A stretch of 10,435 nucleotides of DNA from a bacterium (GTDB taxonomy: Bacteria > Joyebacterota > Joyebacteria > Joyebacterales > Joyebacteraceae). Below, piece after piece: positions 1 through 10,022 of this stretch; position 1 is the stretch's first letter; every line of letters starts with the position of its first letter. Under the pieces are notes generated by a model. That model searched no databases and had not been told where the DNA came from. It worked only from the letters and a program-made list of their open reading frames with translations. Where the stretch lies: contig JALGZK010000032.1 of assembly GCA_025774935.1 (NCBI GenBank), positions 1 through 10,435 of the forward strand. Direction: 5' to 3'. The position numbers were made by a program, and so were the translations under genes.

Positions 1-1475
1 ACCGTCTCTCCATCGAGCGTGATCGTGGGGCGCACGACCATGAACCCCCACGAGACGCTCGCCTCGTTCTCGCCTCCAATGAGGAGGTTGTCGCCCAGCC
101 AGAGCGTGGCGTCGCCGTACGACTTCGAGTCCCAGAGGGCGTACCCGATCGGATTCGTGATCTGCGGATTCGTTCCGATCTCGAACCCGCCGAGCCGACG
201 ACTTTCTCCCGTTCCCTGCGAGAGCACGAGCTGGAGAAGCTCGTCGTTCTCCTCCGCGGTCGCATAGACGAGTTCGCCGTCCCGGAGCTCGAGCCGGATG
301 CCGGTGATCCTGACGCCAAAGTAGTCGGTCATGCCGCCCATCACGATCCCGCTCGCCGTTCCTGCGACGGGAGCGACGATTACCTTCCCCGCGGGCAGGT
401 GCCCCCACCCTCTCCCGTGCTCCACCTCCCACTCCGAGATGATCCCGTCGTCGACGAACACCTCGCGCGCCGAGATGCTGAACGTGAGATCCGTCCCCCC
501 GTCCGAAGTGATCGCAACGTCGCTCCCACTTCCGAGCACGTCCTTGAGCGCGTTGCACCGGCGCTCCATCTCGCGGTAGTCGGCATCGATCGCTGTCCAG
601 CAGGCGTCGTGGAGATCGTGGAAGTCGATGCCCATTACCTCCGCCTTCTGAGGAGTCGGATAGCCGAGGTAGATGAATCGCTTGCCACTGTTGATGAGGG
701 CGCGGCTGACCGGATCCTCGAGCGGGTATCCGGGGATGCCGGCGTAGAGGAACTTCGTCCCGCTCTCCACGAGCCTCTTCAGGAACTGCGCCCTGTCGCC
801 CGGCGCGGCGTCCGGGGCGTACCCCTCGCCGTTCTCGAACGGATAGTCCAGCGGCTCCTCGATCACGATCACCGACGAGAGCCCGTCCTTCCACTGCAGG
901 ATGAAGTCGCCCAGCGGTCCTTTGCCCGTGTGAAGGAGACAGTGAGCGCCGACCACCTCGATCGCGCGGTCGAGCGGCTGGATGATGTCCTTCTGCACGA
1001 GGTCGCCTCGAATGATGACGACGTCGCCTTCCTTCGTACCGAGGCAGTCCTGGATCACCTTCCTCGCGATCGCTTCCTGGTCGACCTCGAGCATCTCGCG
1101 GCGCCGCCACCCGAGCATGCTCGCGGAGATCATCTCCCTCACGTCGCCCTCGAGCCCCGCGTGCTCTCCGATCCCTCGAGCGAGGTAGAAGTTGCGGGCG
1201 ACGGCACGGTAGTACTTCTCGACGACTCCCCCATGCTCGACTCGGCGGCTCATCTCCACGAGCCCCGCCTTCTCGAGTTCTTTGATGTGGTAGTGCACTC
1301 GGCCGCGGGTCGCGCCGATCCAGTCCGAGACCTGCTTCGCCGTTCCCGGGCGCTCGATCAGGAGCGCCAGGATGCGCACGCGCTCGGGATTCGAGAGCGC
1401 CTTGATCTGCGCGTCGCGGTCGACGACGGTGAGTTCCCGCTGGAGGGAGTCGCGCTCGGTCTCGTCGGTGAGCAT
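1..1475 (-). CDS. ArsR-like winged-helix protein fused to degenerate M29 aminopeptidase-like domain (3' end cut)
   Basis: Open from ATG at 1475 to the window edge: 491 codons without a stop, C-terminus missing. An AGGAG ribosome site (1482-1486) sits 6 nt before the ATG. Residues about 22-98 form an ArsR/HTH_20-like winged helix: SNPERVRILALL, a recognition helix around RGRVHYHIKELEKAGLVE, then a wing ending VVEKYYRAVAR. Residues about 130-491 resemble COG2309/M29 leucyl aminopeptidases: GTDLTF (327-332), LPAGKVIVAP (360-369), FEIGTNP (431-437), LGDN (460-463), GG.N and TLDGE (486-490). Compared from memory with active M29 enzymes, the metal-ligand Glu of the LPxxEVFTAP motif is Lys364, the His before the LGDN-like segment is Thr457, and the late His/Asp pair is Ser475/Gly477; only Glu432 seems kept. 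Loss of peptidase activity and a role as a ligand-sensing transcription factor are inferences. The target genes and ligand are not visible. Confidence 0.8.
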   Translation of the reverse strand, partial: MLTDETERDSLQRELTVVDRDAQIKALSNPERVRILALLIERPGTAKQVSDWIGATRGRVHYHIKELEKAGLVEMSRRVEHGGVVEKYYRAVARNFYLARGIGEHAGLEGDVREMISASMLGWRRREMLEVDQEAIARKVIQDCLGTKEGDVVIIRGDLVQKDIIQPLDRAIEVVGAHCLLHTGKGPLGDFILQWKDGLSSVIVIEEPLDYPFENGEGYAPDAAPGDRAQFLKRLVESGTKFLYAGIPGYPLEDPVSRALINSGKRFIYLGYPTPQKAEVMGIDFHDLHDACWTAIDADYREMERRCNALKDVLGSGSDVAITSDGGTDLTFSISAREVFVDDGIISEWEVEHGRGWGHLPAGKVIVAPVAGTASGIVMGGMTDYFGVRITGIRLELRDGELVYATAEENDELLQLVLSQGTGESRRLGGFEIGTNPQITNPIGYALWDSKSYGDATLWLGDNLLIGGENEASVSWGFMVVRPTITLDGET

Positions 1476-1547
1476 GCGAGTCTCCTGGCGAACGAGGCTC
1501 GGTGCGGCGTGGGGCGCGCAGTGCCGGTCTAATTTTCCAGCGCGTCC

Positions 1548-1577
1548 ATTGTACCATTGCCGAGTGGTATTCGTCAA
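1548..1577 (-). promoter_or_regulatory. Sigma-70-type promoter of the HTH-M29 gene
   Basis: Read on the minus strand, TTGACG (1572-1577) and TACAAT (1548-1553) are separated by 18 bases. Both boxes differ from consensus at one position. The predicted transcript begins near 1541 and reaches the ATG at 1475 after about 65 nt, with AGGAG just before it. Confidence 0.7.
1552..1569. promoter_or_regulatory. Candidate operator: TACCA-N8-TGGTA inverted repeat in promoter spacer
   Basis: TACCA (1552-1556) and TGGTA (1565-1569) are perfect inverted copies around an 8-base centre. The element fills the spacer of the minus-strand promoter and overlaps the first two bases of its -10 box. ArsR-type dimers commonly bind such dyads to block polymerase, and the adjacent gene encodes an ArsR-like domain, so autorepression is the simplest reading. 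Arms of 5 bases are short and could arise by chance. Confidence 0.45.
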
Positions 1578-1640: not shown

Positions 1641-3016
<1,376 letters not shown>

Positions 3017-3046
3017 GTCGGGAGCCCGGGGCCGGAGGGAGACGAC

Positions 3047-3439
3047 ATGCCCAACCCTTCCGGAGTGAACAGACGGAAACGCGCGAGGCAGGAGCCGCCG
3101 CGCTTCCTGCGGAAACCGTTCGCGGGCTACGGCCGCGGCGCATCGTCCAAGATCCTCCGCATCCTCGGCTGGACGCTCGCGATCTGGTTCGTCTCGGCAA
3201 TCCTCCTCGGCGACTCGGGTCTCTTCTCCATCTTCCGAATGCGCTCGATGAAGAGCGATCTGGTGGAGGAGAACGAAGCGCTCGAGGCCGAGCGCGACGT
3301 GACGGCCGAGTACCGGGACGACCTCGAGAACGACCCCGCCACGATCGAGCGGGTCGCCCGCGAGGACTACGGGATGATTCGTGAGGGAGAGACTGTCTAC
3401 CGTCTCCCCAGCGAGGAGACCGAGACGGAAGAGGAGTAG
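3047..3439 (+). CDS. FtsB/DivIC-family septum formation initiator
   Basis: A 130-residue bitopic membrane protein of the divisome; family members bind FtsL/FtsQ-type partners and help activate septal peptidoglycan synthesis. The N-terminus (1-35) is basic and cytoplasmic (NRRKRAR, LRKPF). One membrane segment spans about 37-56 (LRILGWTLAIWFVSAILL). A coiled coil follows at about 62-95 (MRSMKSDLVEENEALEAERD). The conserved tail motif NDPATIERVAREDYGMIREGE (95-115, YRLP at 118-121) is typical of FtsB/DivIC. The last residues are a Glu/Thr-rich tail. A GGAGGGAGA ribosome site precedes ATG 3047. The start lies 30 bases after eno, so it is probably in the eno operon. Whether it should be named ftsB or divIC cannot be settled from sequence alone; family membership is secure. 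Confidence 0.88.
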   Translation: MPNPSGVNRRKRARQEPPRFLRKPFAGYGRGASSKILRILGWTLAIWFVSAILLGDSGLFSIFRMRSMKSDLVEENEALEAERDVTAEYRDDLENDPATIERVAREDYGMIREGETVYRLPSEETETEEE

Positions 3440-3445
3440 CCCGCA

Positions 3446-3470
3446 GGCGCCGCGGCTGGGTCGCGGCGCC
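3446..3470 (+). terminator. GC-rich hairpin between the FtsB-like gene and ccsA
   Basis: GGCGCCGCG (3446-3454) pairs perfectly with CGCGGCGCC (3462-3470) around a 7-base loop. It begins 7 bases after the preceding stop codon. No T-run follows, so it is not a classic intrinsic terminator; it may attenuate readthrough or protect the upstream mRNA end. No clear promoter for ccsA was seen between 3471 and 3518. Confidence 0.45.
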
Positions 3471-3507
3471 GATGTCATAGCCCCACGCCACCCAATCACT
3501 TCGGAGC

Positions 3508-3514
3508 AAGGAGA
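3508..3514 (+). promoter_or_regulatory. Ribosome binding site of ccsA
   Basis: AAGGAGA lies 4 nt before GTG 3519. It supports this non-ATG start over an in-frame ATG at 3381, which lies inside the upstream coding sequence. Confidence 0.6.
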
Positions 3515-3518
3515 CGCC

Positions 3519-4400
3519 GTGGATCCACAGGTTCTCATTGCACGAGACGCGTCACTCTTCGCAGCGGAGCGCACCGTTCTCTGGGTGGCGCTCTATGCGT
3601 ACGGAGTGGCGTTCGTCTGCTACGTGATGCACTTTTTCGCCCCACGGAACCGTCTGTTCCGCCAGGCGGCGACCGCGGCGCTCGTCGCCGCAGCGGGTCT
3701 CCAGACGGCCGTGATCGTGATCAGGACCGTCCTCAAGGGGGCCTCACCGTTCCAGAGCCTCTACGAGAGCCTCGCGTGGTTCGCGTGGTCGGCGGCGGTC
3801 GCCTACCTCGTGATCGAGTGGCGGAGGCACGTGAAGCTCCCGGGGTTTTTCGTCTCGCTCATCGCCGGAGGAGCGGTCCTCTACGCGCTTCTCGGACAGA
3901 ACCCAGAGATCAAGCCCCTCTTCCCCGCGCTCCAGAGCTCGTGGTTCTTCTGGCACGTCGCGATCGCGTTCGCGTCGTACGCGATCTTCGTGGTCGCGTT
4001 CGGGGTCGAGATCTCGTACCTGCTCCAGCTTCTCTTCTGGAAGCTAGGAGTGACCAAGGACTACGGCCTCACGCGGGACAACATCTCGAGGTTCCACCGC
4101 TCGGTGCACCAGCTCGTGCTCTTCGGGTTCCCGATGCTCACGTTCGGGATCATGTCCGGAGCGGCCTGGGCGAACGAGGCCTGGGGGGTCTACTGGCAGT
4201 GGGACCCGAAGGAGACGTGGTCCTTGATCACGTGGTTCGCGTTTGCGCTCTACCTGCACGCGAGGGTGATGCCGAGGTGGCGGGGCGCGCCGTCCTCGTT
4301 GATCATGATCCTCGCGTTCGCGTGCATGGTGACGACGTTCCTGGGTGTGTCCTGGCTCGCGAAGCTGTTCGGCGTTCCGAGCCTGCACCTCTACGGATAA
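3519..4400 (+). CDS. ccsA: Cytochrome c biogenesis protein CcsA (system II heme exporter/ligase subunit)
   Basis: With ResB/Ccs1, CcsA forms the system II synthase that delivers heme across the membrane and attaches it to CXXCH apocytochromes. The 293-residue product, from GTG 3519, is strongly hydrophobic with about eight membrane segments (for example 20-41, 50-69, 84-100, 108-125, 143-172, 197-214, 232-249, 258-275). The tryptophan-rich heme-handling (WWD) motif is clear: AWANEAWGVYWQWDPKETW (216-234). Histidines suited to axial heme ligation lie at 146 (WFFWHV), 197 and 290 (near the C-terminal SLHLYG). SPFQSLYESL (76-85) is also typical. An extended start at 3381 would overlap the upstream gene by 59 bases and adds a basic stretch unlike the family, so it was rejected. 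resB begins 10 bases downstream, confirming the functional pair. Confidence 0.95.
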   Translation: MDPQVLIARDASLFAAERTVLWVALYAYGVAFVCYVMHFFAPRNRLFRQAATAALVAAAGLQTAVIVIRTVLKGASPFQSLYESLAWFAWSAAVAYLVIEWRRHVKLPGFFVSLIAGGAVLYALLGQNPEIKPLFPALQSSWFFWHVAIAFASYAIFVVAFGVEISYLLQLLFWKLGVTKDYGLTRDNISRFHRSVHQLVLFGFPMLTFGIMSGAAWANEAWGVYWQWDPKETWSLITWFAFALYLHARVMPRWRGAPSSLIMILAFACMVTTFLGVSWLAKLFGVPSLHLYG

Positions 4401-4410
4401 GGGAGGCGGC

Positions 4411-5967
4411 ATGACCGAGCGAGCAGCAAGAAGCCACTCGAGTTGGACTGCCCCCTTCCGCTGGATCTGGCGGGAGCTGTCGCGGCTCCGACTCACCCTG
4501 TGGCTCCTCATCGTGATGTTCGTGGCGATGATCGTCGGTTCGATCTTCCCCCAGGGCTACGACCCCGAGATGTACATCTCGTCGTGGGGCGAGGCGAAGT
4601 ACGAGTCGATCGCGAGATGGGGAGTCCTGAACCTGTTCCACTCGAAGTTCTTTCTTACGCTGGGCATTGTCCTTCTCCTGAACCTCGTTGTCTGCAGCCT
4701 CGTGCGTTGGTTCGGGCGGTCGGGCGCACGGCTCGCGGGAGAACGCCCTCCCGCGTACGCACGCGAGGTCAAGCTCGAGGGCGGACACGGGATGTCACCG
4801 TCGGTGAAGGCGGTGAGCGTGCTCGAGTCGCGGGGGTACAAGGTCCTGAGCTCGACCGGAAACGTCGTCACGGCGAGACGAGGCCCGTGGCCGGAGGGAG
4901 TGAGTCTCCTCTACCACATCGCGATGGCGGTCGCGATCATCGGGTTCATCGTGTCGGCGCTCTTCGCGTTCGAGGGAGACGTCACGCTCTATCCCGACGA
5001 GCCTCAGCAGGTCGCCACCGTGAGTGACGAGACCGGCGCAATCCGTCTCGGTTTGGTGAAGCCCGACACGACCGCATGGGCCGACCGCTACGTCACGCTC
5101 AACCTGAACGAGTTCATCACGGAGTGGGAGTACTACGAGGAGAAGTACTATCCGCGCGACTGGTTCAGCGATCTCACCGTCGAGGACGACAACGGCCGCT
5201 CCCGCGACTTCATGATCGAGGTGAACCGCCCGCTCCGCGTGTCGGGGCTCACGTTCTACCAGATGGCGTACGACCAGACGTTCGACGTCGTCGTCATGCA
5301 GGACACGCTCGAGGTCGAGCGCGTGAGCGGGAGCGCATACGTGCCGTTCACGCTCGAGTCGATCGGCGGGATGTTCTTCCCCGGGACGATGAGGGTCGGC
5401 ACGCTCTACCAGAAGTACCACGACACCGAGCCGGTCGTTCCGCACACGCCGCTCAAGTGGCAGCCGCCGGCGGAAGGGGAGCCCGGAGAGGACGCCACTG
5501 ACGTCGGGGAGATGGCGCACGGAGAGGCGGAGGAGCCCGAGGGCGAACACGGCGAGGGAAGCGAGCATGCGGAGGAAGCCGCTCACGACGAGGAGGGCGA
5601 AGAGCTCGAGGAAGAGCCGCCTCCCCCGCCGCCCGAGAAGCTCGAGATCGGAGACCTCTCCGCAGAGGTTCCGCTCGAGGTCGAGGGCTACGAGGGATAC
5701 ACGCTCATCCTCGAGAACCCGTACGAGGGAAGCGTCCTCACCTACCGCCACGATCCGGGCGTGCCGCTCCTCTACCTCTCGATCATCGCGTTCATGGTCG
5801 GGCTCGCCATCCGGACGTACTGGCCGAGCTACCGCGTGAACCTGTGGATCGAAGACGGTGCCGACGGGCGCAAGGGCTGGCTCGCCTTCCGTGCAGCGGG
5901 CATGCTCGGTGAGCCGGAACTCATCGAGGAGGACCTCGTGAAGGCCCTTGCCGAGCCGGAGTTGTAG
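4411..5967 (+). CDS. resB: Cytochrome c biogenesis protein ResB/Ccs1
   Basis: Partner of CcsA in system II cytochrome c maturation; thought to hold the apocytochrome and help keep the exported heme reduced. The 518-residue product starts at ATG 4411, after GGGAGG. Membrane segments are near 27-47 (LRLTLWLLIVMFVAMIVGSIFP), 77-98, 166-187 (LLYHIAMAVAIIGF, with a candidate heme-ligand His169) and 450-468. A large extracytoplasmic domain lies between the third and fourth segments; FMIEVNRPLRVSGLTFYQMAYDQ (267-289) matches the ResB core. Odd: residues about 352-408 are a Glu/His/Pro-rich low-complexity insert ending in six prolines, placed just before the final conserved beta region. It is 10 bases after ccsA and surely co-translated with it. 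Family assignment is secure; the role of the insert is unknown. Confidence 0.95.
   Translation: MTERAARSHSSWTAPFRWIWRELSRLRLTLWLLIVMFVAMIVGSIFPQGYDPEMYISSWGEAKYESIARWGVLNLFHSKFFLTLGIVLLLNLVVCSLVRWFGRSGARLAGERPPAYAREVKLEGGHGMSPSVKAVSVLESRGYKVLSSTGNVVTARRGPWPEGVSLLYHIAMAVAIIGFIVSALFAFEGDVTLYPDEPQQVATVSDETGAIRLGLVKPDTTAWADRYVTLNLNEFITEWEYYEEKYYPRDWFSDLTVEDDNGRSRDFMIEVNRPLRVSGLTFYQMAYDQTFDVVVMQDTLEVERVSGSAYVPFTLESIGGMFFPGTMRVGTLYQKYHDTEPVVPHTPLKWQPPAEGEPGEDATDVGEMAHGEAEEPEGEHGEGSEHAEEAAHDEEGEELEEEPPPPPPEKLEIGDLSAEVPLEVEGYEGYTLILENPYEGSVLTYRHDPGVPLLYLSIIAFMVGLAIRTYWPSYRVNLWIEDGADGRKGWLAFRAAGMLGEPELIEEDLVKALAEPEL
5464..5634 (+). repeat. Acidic, His- and Pro-rich low-complexity segment within resB
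   Basis: Encodes residues about 352-408 of ResB, dominated by Glu, with five His, several Gly/Ala and a PPPPPP run at the end. The DNA is rich in GAG/GAA codons. The reading frame continues cleanly on both sides, so this is an in-frame linker insertion and not a frameshift. Confidence 0.75.
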
Positions 5968-6028: not shown

Positions 6029-6105
<77 letters not shown>

Positions 6106-6174: not shown

Positions 6175-9100
6175 CTACTCCAGCAACGTGACCTTGATGA
6201 CGCCCTCGAACCCAGGAGCCTCCATCCGGCACATGTAGACCCCGGATGCCGCACGGCCCCCGTGATCGGTACGGCCGTCCCAATACACCGACTGCCGGCC
6301 CGCAGCACACTCGCGATCACACAAGGACGTTATGCGTCTGCCGGCGACGTCGTACAGCACGACCGAGACACGACCGCCCGGCTCGGGCACGTCGAAGAAC
6401 ACGGACGTTGCCGGATTGAAAGGATTGGGAACAGCACCCACCAAGGCATACCGTACCGGCGCCCGATCCGGCACATCCACACACAGAGGCCCAGAGCCGG
6501 TGCCATGGTCGCTTGTCTCAACCCTGTAGCAGCACAGCTCGCCCGGAACGGCGGTCTCGTCGACGTGGACGTACCTCCCATCACCGTGCGACTCGATCGA
6601 GGCAAGTAGCACGTACTCTCCGTCCTGGGCGCCCACCGCGCGGTAGATCTCGTAGGTGGCCCCAGAGCCTGCCCCGCCGTACCACTGCACCTCCACGCCG
6701 TTCTCACCTGCGACGGCCGAGAGCAGCGCGAGCTCCACCGGAGTGTTCTGCCAGTAGACGACGGTGCTGTCGCTCGAGCCACAGCCGCTGCGAACCACCA
6801 GCGGTCCGGACTGGGCTTCTGGCGGGACGACCAGGCGGATCCAGGAGTCGGTCCAGTCAAGACACTCGGTGGGCAGCACCGGGACTCTCGGTCCCGCACC
6901 CTCGCCCACAAACACCACTCGGTACTCCGCCGGGTCCAAGGTATCGGGACCGTCTCCGAAACGGGACCCATAGATGTTCAGCTCGTCACCGGGGTCACAG
7001 CCGCTCGGAGGGTCCAGAGAGGCGACCGCGGGTGCGCACGTTGCATACGCGACATCGCCGTTGCTGAGGCTTGCGCCGAGGATGCTCACGTCGCCCACGG
7101 CAGCGTTGCAGCTTGCCGCGCGGCTCTCGGAGACGAGAGTGGCGTAGACCTCGTAGGCTCCGAGCGACGTCAGCGGCTGGGGCCCCGGACCGCCAAACAG
7201 CGTATCAGTAAGGTAACCTCCGGCCAGGAGGTCGACAAGGAAGCCCGTGTCCGCACTGACGCCCAACTGAGGGGCTGCCTGCGCCAACGGTTCCAGGCTC
7301 ATGAAGAGCAGCATGTCGAAGCCATCGAAGTCGACGTCGTAGCCGGCCGGCCCTACGTCGAGCCGTGCCAGAGCGGCTCCCGCACCCTCAGGGGCATCGT
7401 CGAGTATCGTGCCGATGTCCGCGGCCGTCACTCCTTCGAGAAGACCGAACAGCTCTGCGCCGCCGGCAAGTCTGGGGATATACGGCGTCTCGCTCGAAGG
7501 GTCGATGAAGGGATTGGCCGCCATCGGTCCAGGATGCGTCTCGATCTGCGCGCCACTCACCGTCCCCCAAGAGCCGCTGGTGTCGTGGCTGCAGATGACG
7601 AAACGCCCCTGGCCGCCTGCAGAGGCTCCGAAGCCGCCTCGCCCGCCTCCAGTGAAGATGGCTGGAGATCCGGCGCTGATCAGCGAACCAGTGAACATCA
7701 CTGTGCCGCCTGCGCCACCGGCACCGCTCCCACCTAGGCCACCGAGACCGCCAGGCGCGCCAGTCCCACCGTCACCTCCGTTTCTGCCGTTCTGGTTAGG
7801 CGGATTCAGGCCCGCGCCCGGGAGCCCGGGGTCACCCGATTGCCCCGGCAAACCCGGACTCCCGTCGGAACCAAGGTCGCCGGTCAGCCCGGAGCCGCCG
7901 CCGACGTGAAACTCCCCTGCAACCTGGACGACGCCCCGCGCCGCAAGTTCTAGAGCGCCCCCACCTCCCCCACCTGGCCCTCCGGCCCCGCTCCTCCCTC
8001 CATCGCCGCCGGCTCCACCATCGCCGCCCTGACCACCGTCGCCGCCGACGCCATTGAGATGAGGACAGCCTACTGATCCGTATGTCGCCGCACCGCCACC
8101 GCCGCCACCGCCACCGCCGCCGCCATTTCCTCCGCCACCGGAGCCTCCACTACCACCCCCGCCGCCACCCCCTCCACCCGAGAGCACTGGCCCGACGCTG
8201 GCCTGCTGCCCCGACGTCCCGGGTCCCCCTCCATGACCGTCCGGCCCTTGAGCCGCCTCGATGGCGGGCCAGCTCTCGCCATCATCTCCAGCTTCTACAG
8301 CCAGTAACTCGGCCGGTGTGCATGATCCGTATGGAGGGGGGGGGGTGTGCGCGGTAGAACCAGCCTGCCCCCCTTGCCCGCCGGCCAGGTTGCAGACTCC
8401 GTCGACGTCCCATACGGCCGGGTCGCCCCCGTTCCCGCCAGGACCTCCACCGGCACTCGGGCCTATCCCCGCGTCCCCGGCGAGGCCGGGTTGTCCTTCC
8501 GTCACCGGCACCGGACCGTTGTTGGGGCAGTTCGGATAGTGCCATTCCGGCTCACCGTGTTCCCCAGGTGTGTTCTGGAGCTGGCCAGGGAACCAGGTTC
8601 CTCGCCCTTTCGCCCCGCCCTGCCCTCCGGGTTGTCCTGACTCACCTGCCACCCAGGCGCCGCCTGCTCCTCCGGCTCCTCCACCGGGTCCGGAGACATC
8701 TCCTGTCGCTGAGAAAGCGACGCCAGCAGTCGCGTCGAACGCCACGTTGTTCAACGCCAGCAGCGATACACCACTGGGACCAGATGCGGTGATGAGCTCG
8801 TGCGGGCCAATCGTGAGGTCGCCCTGGAAGACGAACTCCGCAACTCCGCCGTCAATGCCGGCGTTGAAAGGCACTCCATTGAACTGACCGGAATCGCCGT
8901 TGATGGTAAGCAGCTCGGAGTCGATGACCACCAGCCCGTAGTCGAACTCCTGAACGCGGTCGTCCTGGGAGTCCGCCACCCATACCGCAGCCCGCGCTGC
9001 TCCCCCGCTCCACAACTGCACGGCGACGCCAGTGGGCGAAGTGAATTCCCCGTCCCCGGTTCCGGGCGAGCCCCACGCAGCAAGGAAGTCGCCCTCCTGT

Positions 9101-9906
9101 GTGAATTTCTGGATGCGGCTGTTGCCGGTGTCGGCGACGTACACGAAGCCCCACTCGTCGACGGCGATGCCTGTTGGCTGACTGAAGTCACCCTCTCCCG
9201 AACCGGCTGAACCCCACTTAGTCATGAAGTCCCCATTGGCGGAGAACTTCTGTATCCGGCTGTTCCCAGTATCAACCACATAGACGTTCCCGGATGCGTC
9301 ACACGCGATTCCTGTAGGACCATTGAACTCACCGTCGCCGGAACCGGTCGCACCCCATAGAGACCGGAAGTTGCCGAATCCGTCGAACAGCTGGATGCGG
9401 TCGTTGCCGGAATCAACGACGTGAACGTTCGGCCCGAAGGGGAAGAGATGCGTCAGATCCGAGACGCAAATCCCTTCCGGCGAATCGAACTGCTCATCGC
9501 CTGTACCGAATTCGCCGAACTCGAACTCAACCGCCCCATTGACGAGGCGCTTCTGGACCTTGTGATTCGCCCTGTCTGCGACCCACATGCCGCCGTACTC
9601 GCTGTCTGCGCAGAGCCCGGTCGGTACGAACGTGCCCGCCGTATCAGGCGCACCGATCTGCCATTGGTAGACTCCGAGAGAATCGAACGCCTGGACGCGG
9701 CCGTTCTGTTCATCCGACACGAGCAGAACGTGGTCGAACGCCGAGAATGACATGTACGTCGGAGCGTCGAGCTGCCCGTCGCCTGCGCCCTGCTCACCCC
9801 ACTCGGAGTGGAACGACGGTATGGATCCTGCCTGCGCCCCTGTTGCGAGAAGCACCGTAGCGGACAGCAACGTCGTGAGAACCACCTCCCGTAGCAGTTG
9901 CCTCAT
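6175..9906 (-). CDS. Secreted modular protein: NHL propeller, PGRS-like glycine-rich region, TIG-, FN3- and FlgD-Ig-like domains
   Basis: A 1243-residue product. ATG 9906 was chosen because GGGAGGT (9914-9920) lies 7 nt before it and a signal peptide follows at once (basic MRQLLR, hydrophobic core, cleavage after AQA at about 26); an in-frame extension to 10011 lacks both. Residues 36-324 hold six NHL repeats (blades near 36, 86, 132, 186, 233, 280), each with WG..G.GDG.F..PTGIA and VADTGNSRIQKF-like parts. Residues about 325-404 are beta-rich. About 405-770 are extremely glycine-rich, including a near-pure Gly stretch at 577-605. About 961-1052 resemble an IPT/TIG domain (LDPPSGCDPGDELNIYG), about 1056-1147 fibronectin type III, and about 1152-1243 a FlgD-Ig-type C-terminal domain (VPNPFNPATSV, LYDVAGRRI, WDGRTDHGGRAASGVY). 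Eleven or so cysteines cluster in the last third. Likely exported and surface-anchored or released; the specific function is unknown. No partner gene adjoins it. Confidence 0.85.
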   Translation of the reverse strand: MRQLLREVVLTTLLSATVLLATGAQAGSIPSFHSEWGEQGAGDGQLDAPTYMSFSAFDHVLLVSDEQNGRVQAFDSLGVYQWQIGAPDTAGTFVPTGLCADSEYGGMWVADRANHKVQKRLVNGAVEFEFGEFGTGDEQFDSPEGICVSDLTHLFPFGPNVHVVDSGNDRIQLFDGFGNFRSLWGATGSGDGEFNGPTGIACDASGNVYVVDTGNSRIQKFSANGDFMTKWGSAGSGEGDFSQPTGIAVDEWGFVYVADTGNSRIQKFTQEGDFLAAWGSPGTGDGEFTSPTGVAVQLWSGGAARAAVWVADSQDDRVQEFDYGLVVIDSELLTINGDSGQFNGVPFNAGIDGGVAEFVFQGDLTIGPHELITASGPSGVSLLALNNVAFDATAGVAFSATGDVSGPGGGAGGAGGAWVAGESGQPGGQGGAKGRGTWFPGQLQNTPGEHGEPEWHYPNCPNNGPVPVTEGQPGLAGDAGIGPSAGGGPGGNGGDPAVWDVDGVCNLAGGQGGQAGSTAHTPPPPYGSCTPAELLAVEAGDDGESWPAIEAAQGPDGHGGGPGTSGQQASVGPVLSGGGGGGGGGSGGSGGGGNGGGGGGGGGGGAATYGSVGCPHLNGVGGDGGQGGDGGAGGDGGRSGAGGPGGGGGGALELAARGVVQVAGEFHVGGGSGLTGDLGSDGSPGLPGQSGDPGLPGAGLNPPNQNGRNGGDGGTGAPGGLGGLGGSGAGGAGGTVMFTGSLISAGSPAIFTGGGRGGFGASAGGQGRFVICSHDTSGSWGTVSGAQIETHPGPMAANPFIDPSSETPYIPRLAGGAELFGLLEGVTAADIGTILDDAPEGAGAALARLDVGPAGYDVDFDGFDMLLFMSLEPLAQAAPQLGVSADTGFLVDLLAGGYLTDTLFGGPGPQPLTSLGAYEVYATLVSESRAASCNAAVGDVSILGASLSNGDVAYATCAPAVASLDPPSGCDPGDELNIYGSRFGDGPDTLDPAEYRVVFVGEGAGPRVPVLPTECLDWTDSWIRLVVPPEAQSGPLVVRSGCGSSDSTVVYWQNTPVELALLSAVAGENGVEVQWYGGAGSGATYEIYRAVGAQDGEYVLLASIESHGDGRYVHVDETAVPGELCCYRVETSDHGTGSGPLCVDVPDRAPVRYALVGAVPNPFNPATSVFFDVPEPGGRVSVVLYDVAGRRITSLCDRECAAGRQSVYWDGRTDHGGRAASGVYMCRMEAPGFEGVIKVTLLE
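8092..8178 (-). repeat. Near-pure Gly codon tract (GGN triplet run)
   Basis: Twenty-nine residues (577-605) that are almost all Gly with only two Ser and one Asn, coded by runs of GGC/GGT/GGG triplets. Such trinucleotide tracts change length by replication slippage in whole codons. Confidence 0.75.
8336..8345 (-). repeat. C10 homopolymer tract within the large secreted-protein gene
   Basis: Ten consecutive G on the plus strand, read as ten C in the coding strand, encoding Thr521-Pro524 (the tract runs into Pro525). Homopolymers of this length are prone to gain or loss of single bases, which would shift the frame. Confidence 0.85.
8935..9801 (-). repeat. Six degenerate NHL-coding repeats of about 140-160 bp
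   Basis: Encodes residues 36-324. Blades 4 and 5 share the exact eight residues GNSRIQKF but use different codons, showing old divergence and not recent tandem duplication. Unit starts are near 9801, 9651, 9513, 9351, 9210 and 9069. Confidence 0.8.
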
Positions 9907-9994
9907 GCCGTCTACCTCCCTCACGGTAGTACACAAGCACTCCGCACCGCATGGATGCAGAGCGCAGTTGGCTTCCACTCGAGGAACGTCTTCA

Positions 9995-10022
9995 ATTCTA
10001 GCAGTACCCAACGTCCTGTAGA
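9995..10022 (-). promoter_or_regulatory. Candidate promoter of the large secreted-protein gene
   Basis: On the minus strand, TCTACA (10017-10022), a 16-base spacer and TAGAAT (9995-10000), with TGC directly before the -10 box giving an extended -10. The -35 matches consensus at four of six positions and the -10 at five of six. The leader to ATG 9906 would be about 80 nt. Confidence 0.4.

Follow-up and report, generated by a model that had tools for sequence, protein, structure and literature searches.

PepA, an M17 leucyl aminopeptidase, also regulates transcription; it is catalytically active and needs no fused winged helix to bind DNA. The NicX-type 2,5-dihydroxypyridine dioxygenase is a mononuclear iron enzyme that uses an HxD pair. 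The M29 aminopeptidases have the EEHYHD set of residues in common; in AmpS, E319 is bridging, E253 and H348 hold one metal and H381 and D383 hold the other (PMC7023490). CgnB and CgnE of crocagin biosynthesis are M29-derived peptide-binding proteins, of which CgnE has lost the metal site; they have no extra domain, much of the N-terminal part is absent and their role is in peptide biosynthesis (PMC10070186).

The window, the whole stretch of DNA that was analysed, is 10,435 bp long, makes up the entire contig C25 of a 3.24 Mb genome and carries a gene in which an ArsR-type winged helix is fused to an M29-fold domain. The fusion has the fold and the scaffold motifs in common with AmpT, AmpS and PepS (PF02073), but all five metal ligands are replaced and a winged helix is added at the N-terminus. 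Judged by these residues it is not an active-type M29 peptidase, as the defining metal residues fail. Like CgnB and CgnE it is M29-derived and of similar fold (Z 12-15 for the fusion models), with the metal site lost as in CgnE, whereas the winged helix, the full-length M29 part and the putative role in transcription are found in the fusion only; the extra domain separates it from the CgnB/CgnE family. The NicX-type dioxygenase (7cn3, 7cup) has the same fold (Z 22-25), but the fusion is without the HxD pair and with a winged helix. The ArsR/SmtB regulators and PH1932 (1uly) have the winged helix (residues 20-98) in common with the fusion, which differs in its large C-terminal domain. The score against the NCBIfam metalloregulator model NF033788 is 33.3 bits, below the cut-off of 55, and residues 20-98 contain no Cys, so by its sequence the fusion is not a classical ArsR/SmtB metalloregulator. 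PepA is likewise an aminopeptidase recruited to transcriptional control, from another peptidase family. The literature search, in which subscription journals were thinly covered, found no HTH-M29 regulator, in agreement with an earlier sequence-only reading of this DNA to which the design was unfamiliar.

The fusion gene and its domains

The gene and its two domains are placed as follows.
1..1475, minus strand: coding sequence of the wHTH-M29 fusion, residues 1-491 of 500 inside the window
1182..1418, minus strand: ArsR-type winged helix-turn-helix, residues 20-98 (Pfam, solved relative and fold match)
3..1088, minus strand: M29-aminopeptidase-fold domain, residues 130-491 in the window and 130-500 when complete (Pfam and fold match)

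The frame starts with an ATG at 1475 and is open down to base 3. The 3' end of the gene is absent from the window because the window is the whole of contig C25. Contig C27 of the same genome supplies the last 9 codons and the stop: its end and the start of C25 have 114 bases exactly in common, and the joined protein has 500 amino acids. The position at a contig end, and the splitting of the gene by an apparent frameshift in the relative G004 (the L012 contig), could point to separate wHTH and M29 genes fused by an assembly error, an origin that the sequence-only reading had itself raised against the intact frame it described. Unbroken fusions are however present in many separate MAGs, at 63-94% identity and with synteny kept; these full-length copies refute an artefactual join and make such an error extremely improbable.

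Both domains that had been read from the letters are matched in Pfam. HTH_20 and HTH_5 (ArsR) match residues 27-75 with 37.4 and 31.8 bits (HTH_5 cut-off 22), Peptidase_M29 (PF02073) matches residues 299-441 with 40 bits (cut-off 27), and both families were matched in all nine orthologues scanned. The winged helix matches its solved relative PH1932 with E 1e-10, and residues 19-102 match ArsR-type proteins with Z about 10 (VIA-align). The structure prediction suggested earlier gave a whole-chain fold that matches AmpT, AmpS and PepS, with Z about 26 for AmpT/AmpS; the model of the M29 domain alone gave Z 21-22 against AmpT/PepS, and the range for the fusion models against these enzymes and the dioxygenase was 19-26. 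The 371-residue M29 part aligns over its length to full M29 enzymes. The AlphaFold models are of moderate confidence (pLDDT 69-70; pTM 0.59 for the whole chain and 0.73 for the domain alone) because the number of usable sequences was 11. By the Pfam and fold matches, one polypeptide contains both a DNA-binding domain and a putative sensor domain, which is the mark of a one-component regulator, and the architecture works like a regulator of that kind with an enzyme-derived sensor.

Loss of the metal site

The ligand positions were read by alignment to 15 ligand-intact M29 homologues. The following substitutions, all taken from alignments, were found.
384..386, minus strand: Lys364 for the first metal-binding Glu (LPAGK vs LPxGE)
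186..188, minus strand: Gly430 for the bridging Glu (LGG vs LGE)
126..128, minus strand: Ser450 for the conserved Glu of the FDEK motif
105..107, minus strand: Thr457 for the first metal-binding His (Ala in genus g5)
45..53, minus strand: Ser475-Trp-Gly477 for the metal-binding His-Trp-Asp

The ligands E, E, H, H and D of the EEHYHD set are thus replaced by K364, G430, T457 (or Ala), S475 and G477, and A371 replaces a further invariant Glu of the ligand-intact homologues. Profile alignment to the solved PepS gave matching substitutions at the ligand positions. The degenerate site had been described earlier from Lys364, Thr457, Ser475 and Gly477, which are substituted as stated, while the fifth ligand position, G430, had been missed. 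Across the fusions four of the five positions are invariant, while the remaining one is either Thr or Ala; the loss is fixed, being present in each orthologue whose sequence spans the sites. The closest-scoring HTH-less relatives, L045 and L046, retain all five ligands.

The scaffold motifs are kept, as previously claimed: N436, D449, K451, G461, W476 and D488 are common to the fusions and the active-type set. There are 55 positions that are invariant in the fusions with a residue never found in the active-type set; the invariant residues restricted to the fusions include H359, E432, Y445, W448, D455, W459 and D462. It agrees better with a conserved pocket that was remodelled than with decay. 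With the fold kept and all five ligands lost, the earlier view of the M29 part as a pseudoenzyme is strongly supported by the alignments.

Two other readings of the domain bear on the same residues. It could have gained another active site, comparable to that of the NicX-type enzyme with its one iron, so that the protein would be a bifunctional enzyme-regulator turning over its inducer. The dioxygenase is about as close in fold as the aminopeptidases, and H359, E432, D455 and D462 are among the fusion-only residues that could make a new site, but the HxD pair used by the dioxygenase corresponds to S475/G477 and no remaining cluster of His, Asp or Glu is apparent from the sequence at the old site, which leaves a second activity unlikely. 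The domain could also be a mere platform for dimerisation or protein interaction, in a regulator that senses no small ligand. M29 enzymes form dimers through an extensive interface (PMC10070186), and the loss of all ligands removes the need for a pocket. The old active-site region, with its fusion-specific invariant residues, is nevertheless more strongly conserved than a platform needs, and a purely structural role is considered improbable.

Distribution, conservation and origin

A search for further HTH plus M29 proteins had been proposed earlier; run with a profile over 20 genomes of the phylum, it found the fusion in 16 and not in G009, G016, G018 and G019. Among the 16, the gene is split in G004, as described above, and truncated by contig ends in G000, G008 and G017. 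Nine relatives (64-94% identity) come from Eisenbacteria and other bacterial MAGs. In ten pairs, dN/dS ranged from 0.01 to 0.1 in the winged helix and from 0.06 to 0.26 in the M29 part; with values below 0.26 in both, the sequences indicate that both parts are kept by purifying selection.

Outside the phylum, no full-length fusion was found among the other genomes of a 386-genome set sparsely spread over the domain, nor were there full-length fusion matches in the two small phyla that contain the nearest relatives. The full-length matches of a pattern scan of genome contigs gave no fusion in other phyla. One match, L013 (Peptococcaceae), is a stand-alone ArsR-type regulator of 107 amino acids and not a fusion.

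In the maximum-likelihood tree the fusions fall into a single group (100/100), and the phylum's ordinary M29 paralogues lie outside it. The fusions cluster with the HTH-less proteins L045, L046, L047, L053 and L056 at moderate support (92/79), and their exact sister is uncertain because of long branches. L045 and L046 are the best-scoring HTH-less matches (E about 1e-50), while the ligands are lost in L047, L053 and L056. From these alignments the loss of the M29 metal site looks to have occurred repeatedly, and it has also been reported in the CgnE group (PMC10070186).

Some of the M29-like genes outside the fusion group have features of their own. L053, L056, L116, L117 and L118, from one small phylum, are HTH-less M29-like proteins in which the metal ligands are also lost; by their residues they are a separate, second case of degenerate M29 proteins. 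On L124 and L125 a degenerate M29-like gene lies near phosphatidylserine decarboxylase/synthase-like and ABC-type export genes (named by eye). L047 (L123:5449-7040) has C, H, F, N and D at the ligand positions, and its gene adjoins the gene of a DUF2087 protein and a large gene for a predicted secreted protein. Two tandem ordinary M29 genes are present in G000 (G000:C18:209668-211899), both with all ligands, and this genome therefore retains active-type M29 beside the fusion.

The fusion promoter and an 18-bp element

The region upstream of the fusion gene is shared with a divergent enolase gene.
1548..1577, minus strand: predicted sigma-70-type promoter of the fusion gene, TTGACG, 18 nt, TACAAT (promoter scan, conserved in relatives)
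1525..1543, minus strand: conserved block GCGCTGGAAAATTAGACCG, candidate operator at the expected transcript start (intergenic comparison)
1733..3016, plus strand: enolase gene (product named by sequence motif)

The promoter scan of the region found two promoter-like sites against 0.1 expected in shuffles. An element was found by comparing the intergenic regions between fusion and enolase: the GCGCTGGAAAATTAGACCG block begins four bases past the -10 box of the fusion promoter, and its 18-bp core, CGCTGGAAAATTAGACCG, five bases past it. When 21 sites were aligned, the positions of the element were far more conserved than the near-random flanks. With up to 3 mismatches there is a single copy in the window's own genome, at the fusion promoter. 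Matches were obtained in exactly 16 of the 20 genomes, those with the fusion. The four genomes without the fusion gave no match, and the reversed control gave zero across all 20. A 35-position profile also separates these 16 genomes from the others, and most of its strong sites score above 28 bits; the two weakest fusion-promoter sites are those of G015 (23.3 bits) and G014 (16.4 bits), in which the spacing deviates. The 3-mismatch matches G010:C3 and G011:C2 fall within genes, and the profile gives them no support. Taken alone, the finding of element and fusion in the same genomes is in part trivial, as the promoter of the fusion itself supplies one of the sites.

A coding leader (RWKIRP in one frame) was rejected as an explanation of the element: its most invariant positions include third codon positions, and others vary. 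Inverted repeats are the usual binding sites of ArsR-type dimers. The dyad symmetry of the element is weak (5 of 9 pairs, about 5% of shuffles being as good), and this is the main point against simple dimer binding. In the promoters of L005 and L006 there are two tandem copies 18 bp apart instead of one; this could be cooperative binding.

Unlinked copies of the element and secreted-protein genes

In 12 of 13 loci the gene after the fusion encodes a predicted secreted protein (signal sequences judged by eye), mostly of the MAM/FlgD-tail kind; it lies on the strand of the fusion and in most cases no more than about 200 bp away. The exception is G012. Five further strong sites, with the same promoter layout, precede other genes for predicted secreted proteins.
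Unlinked element in G007: ahead of a sortilin/BNR-type protein gene
Unlinked element in G012: ahead of an InhA-MAM protein gene
Unlinked element in G014 (C31): ahead of an InhA-MAM protein gene
Unlinked element in G013: ahead of a beta-helix-like protein gene
Unlinked element in G014 (C61): ahead of a beta-helix-like protein gene (the Pfam match is of the G014 copy)

In G010, of a sister genus, a MAM gene comes directly after the fusion. Its homologue in G012 (69% over 484 amino acids, the best among the candidates compared) is on another contig behind an element of its own, and the DNA around the two element-bearing promoters of G012 is otherwise unrelated. In G013 and G014 an operon headed by the element has the homologue (70-72%) in second place. 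Thus in three genomes an unlinked element heads an operon with a homologue of the G010 gene, at 69-72% identity, and the element therefore tracks specific genes, whether these adjoin the regulator or have moved away. It is not a general feature of MAM genes: there are five strong sites beyond the fusion promoters against roughly 90 MAM-family matches in the phylum, most of which lack a strong site in their vicinity. In G000 a tandem array of genes for MAM-family secreted proteins (G000:C22:7210-24055) is without the element.

The element could instead be bound by another factor, or act in an RNA leader, with the fusion protein acting elsewhere. Its weak dyad and its position at the expected transcript start agree with this. 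Against it, the 16 of 20 genomes that have the element are those that have the fusion, and the unlinked copies track homologues of fusion-adjacent genes; a known RNA element is not indicated either, as Rfam gave no match at the region. An element that serves another factor or an RNA is therefore held to be fairly unlikely.

Proposed mechanism

The fusion is probably an autoregulated one-component regulator that controls secreted surface proteins through a pseudo-aminopeptidase sensor. The winged helix, the element at the gene's own promoter and the copies before predicted secreted-protein genes give comparative support to the transcriptional control that the sequence-only reading had suggested. 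The ArsR-type winged helix would bind the 18-bp element, which overlaps the expected start of the regulator's own transcript. As the M29 fold is kept and the two-metal centre lost, the M29 domain would bind a ligand rather than cut it. The ligand, most likely a peptide or an amino-acid-like molecule, would sit in the old M29 substrate cavity, and through an altered DNA binding it would determine how much of the regulator is made. Sensing of peptides or amino acids is plausible by analogy with the M29 substrate pocket and with CgnB/CgnE. The secreted MAM/FlgD-tail proteins encoded behind the fusion would be under the same control, as would, in some genomes, the unlinked secreted-protein operons with the element. 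Given where the element lies, across the expected start of the transcript, ligand-modulated repression would be the simplest sign. We infer each of three steps, namely binding of the element by the fusion protein, the sign of control and the sensing of a ligand.

It is possible, though put forward tentatively, that the fusions are a new regulator family, in which a metal-less M29 sensor reads intracellular peptides and controls a small regulon for secreted MAM and beta-helix proteins and related surface proteins via the 18-bp start-site element. If the proposed mechanism is true, a peptidase fold joins the enzyme folds reused as sensors of one-component regulators, by the route of fusion to an ArsR-type winged helix plus loss of the whole two-metal site. 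It would also be a second case, beside CgnB/CgnE, of M29 proteins that no longer cut their substrates but probably hold them, and would give a handle on the control of some of the large families of secreted surface proteins in a poorly known uncultured lineage. The defined DNA element and the short list of candidate targets make binding, sign of control and ligand directly testable.

Neighbouring genes

The enolase gene is divergent from the fusion in all 16 genomes; it is a neighbour of the fusion and is not counted as a target. Downstream of it on the plus strand, a DivIC/FtsB-like gene and two cytochrome c biogenesis genes (CcsA- and ResB-like, by eye) occupy 3017-5967, and the gene order after enolase is preserved in most relatives. 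A tRNA gene is found at 6029-6102 on the plus strand (Rfam, 65.5 bits). The minus strand at 6178-10011 encodes a protein of 1278 amino acids that has NHL repeats, a middle part rich in glycine and a FlgD-type domain at the C-terminus.
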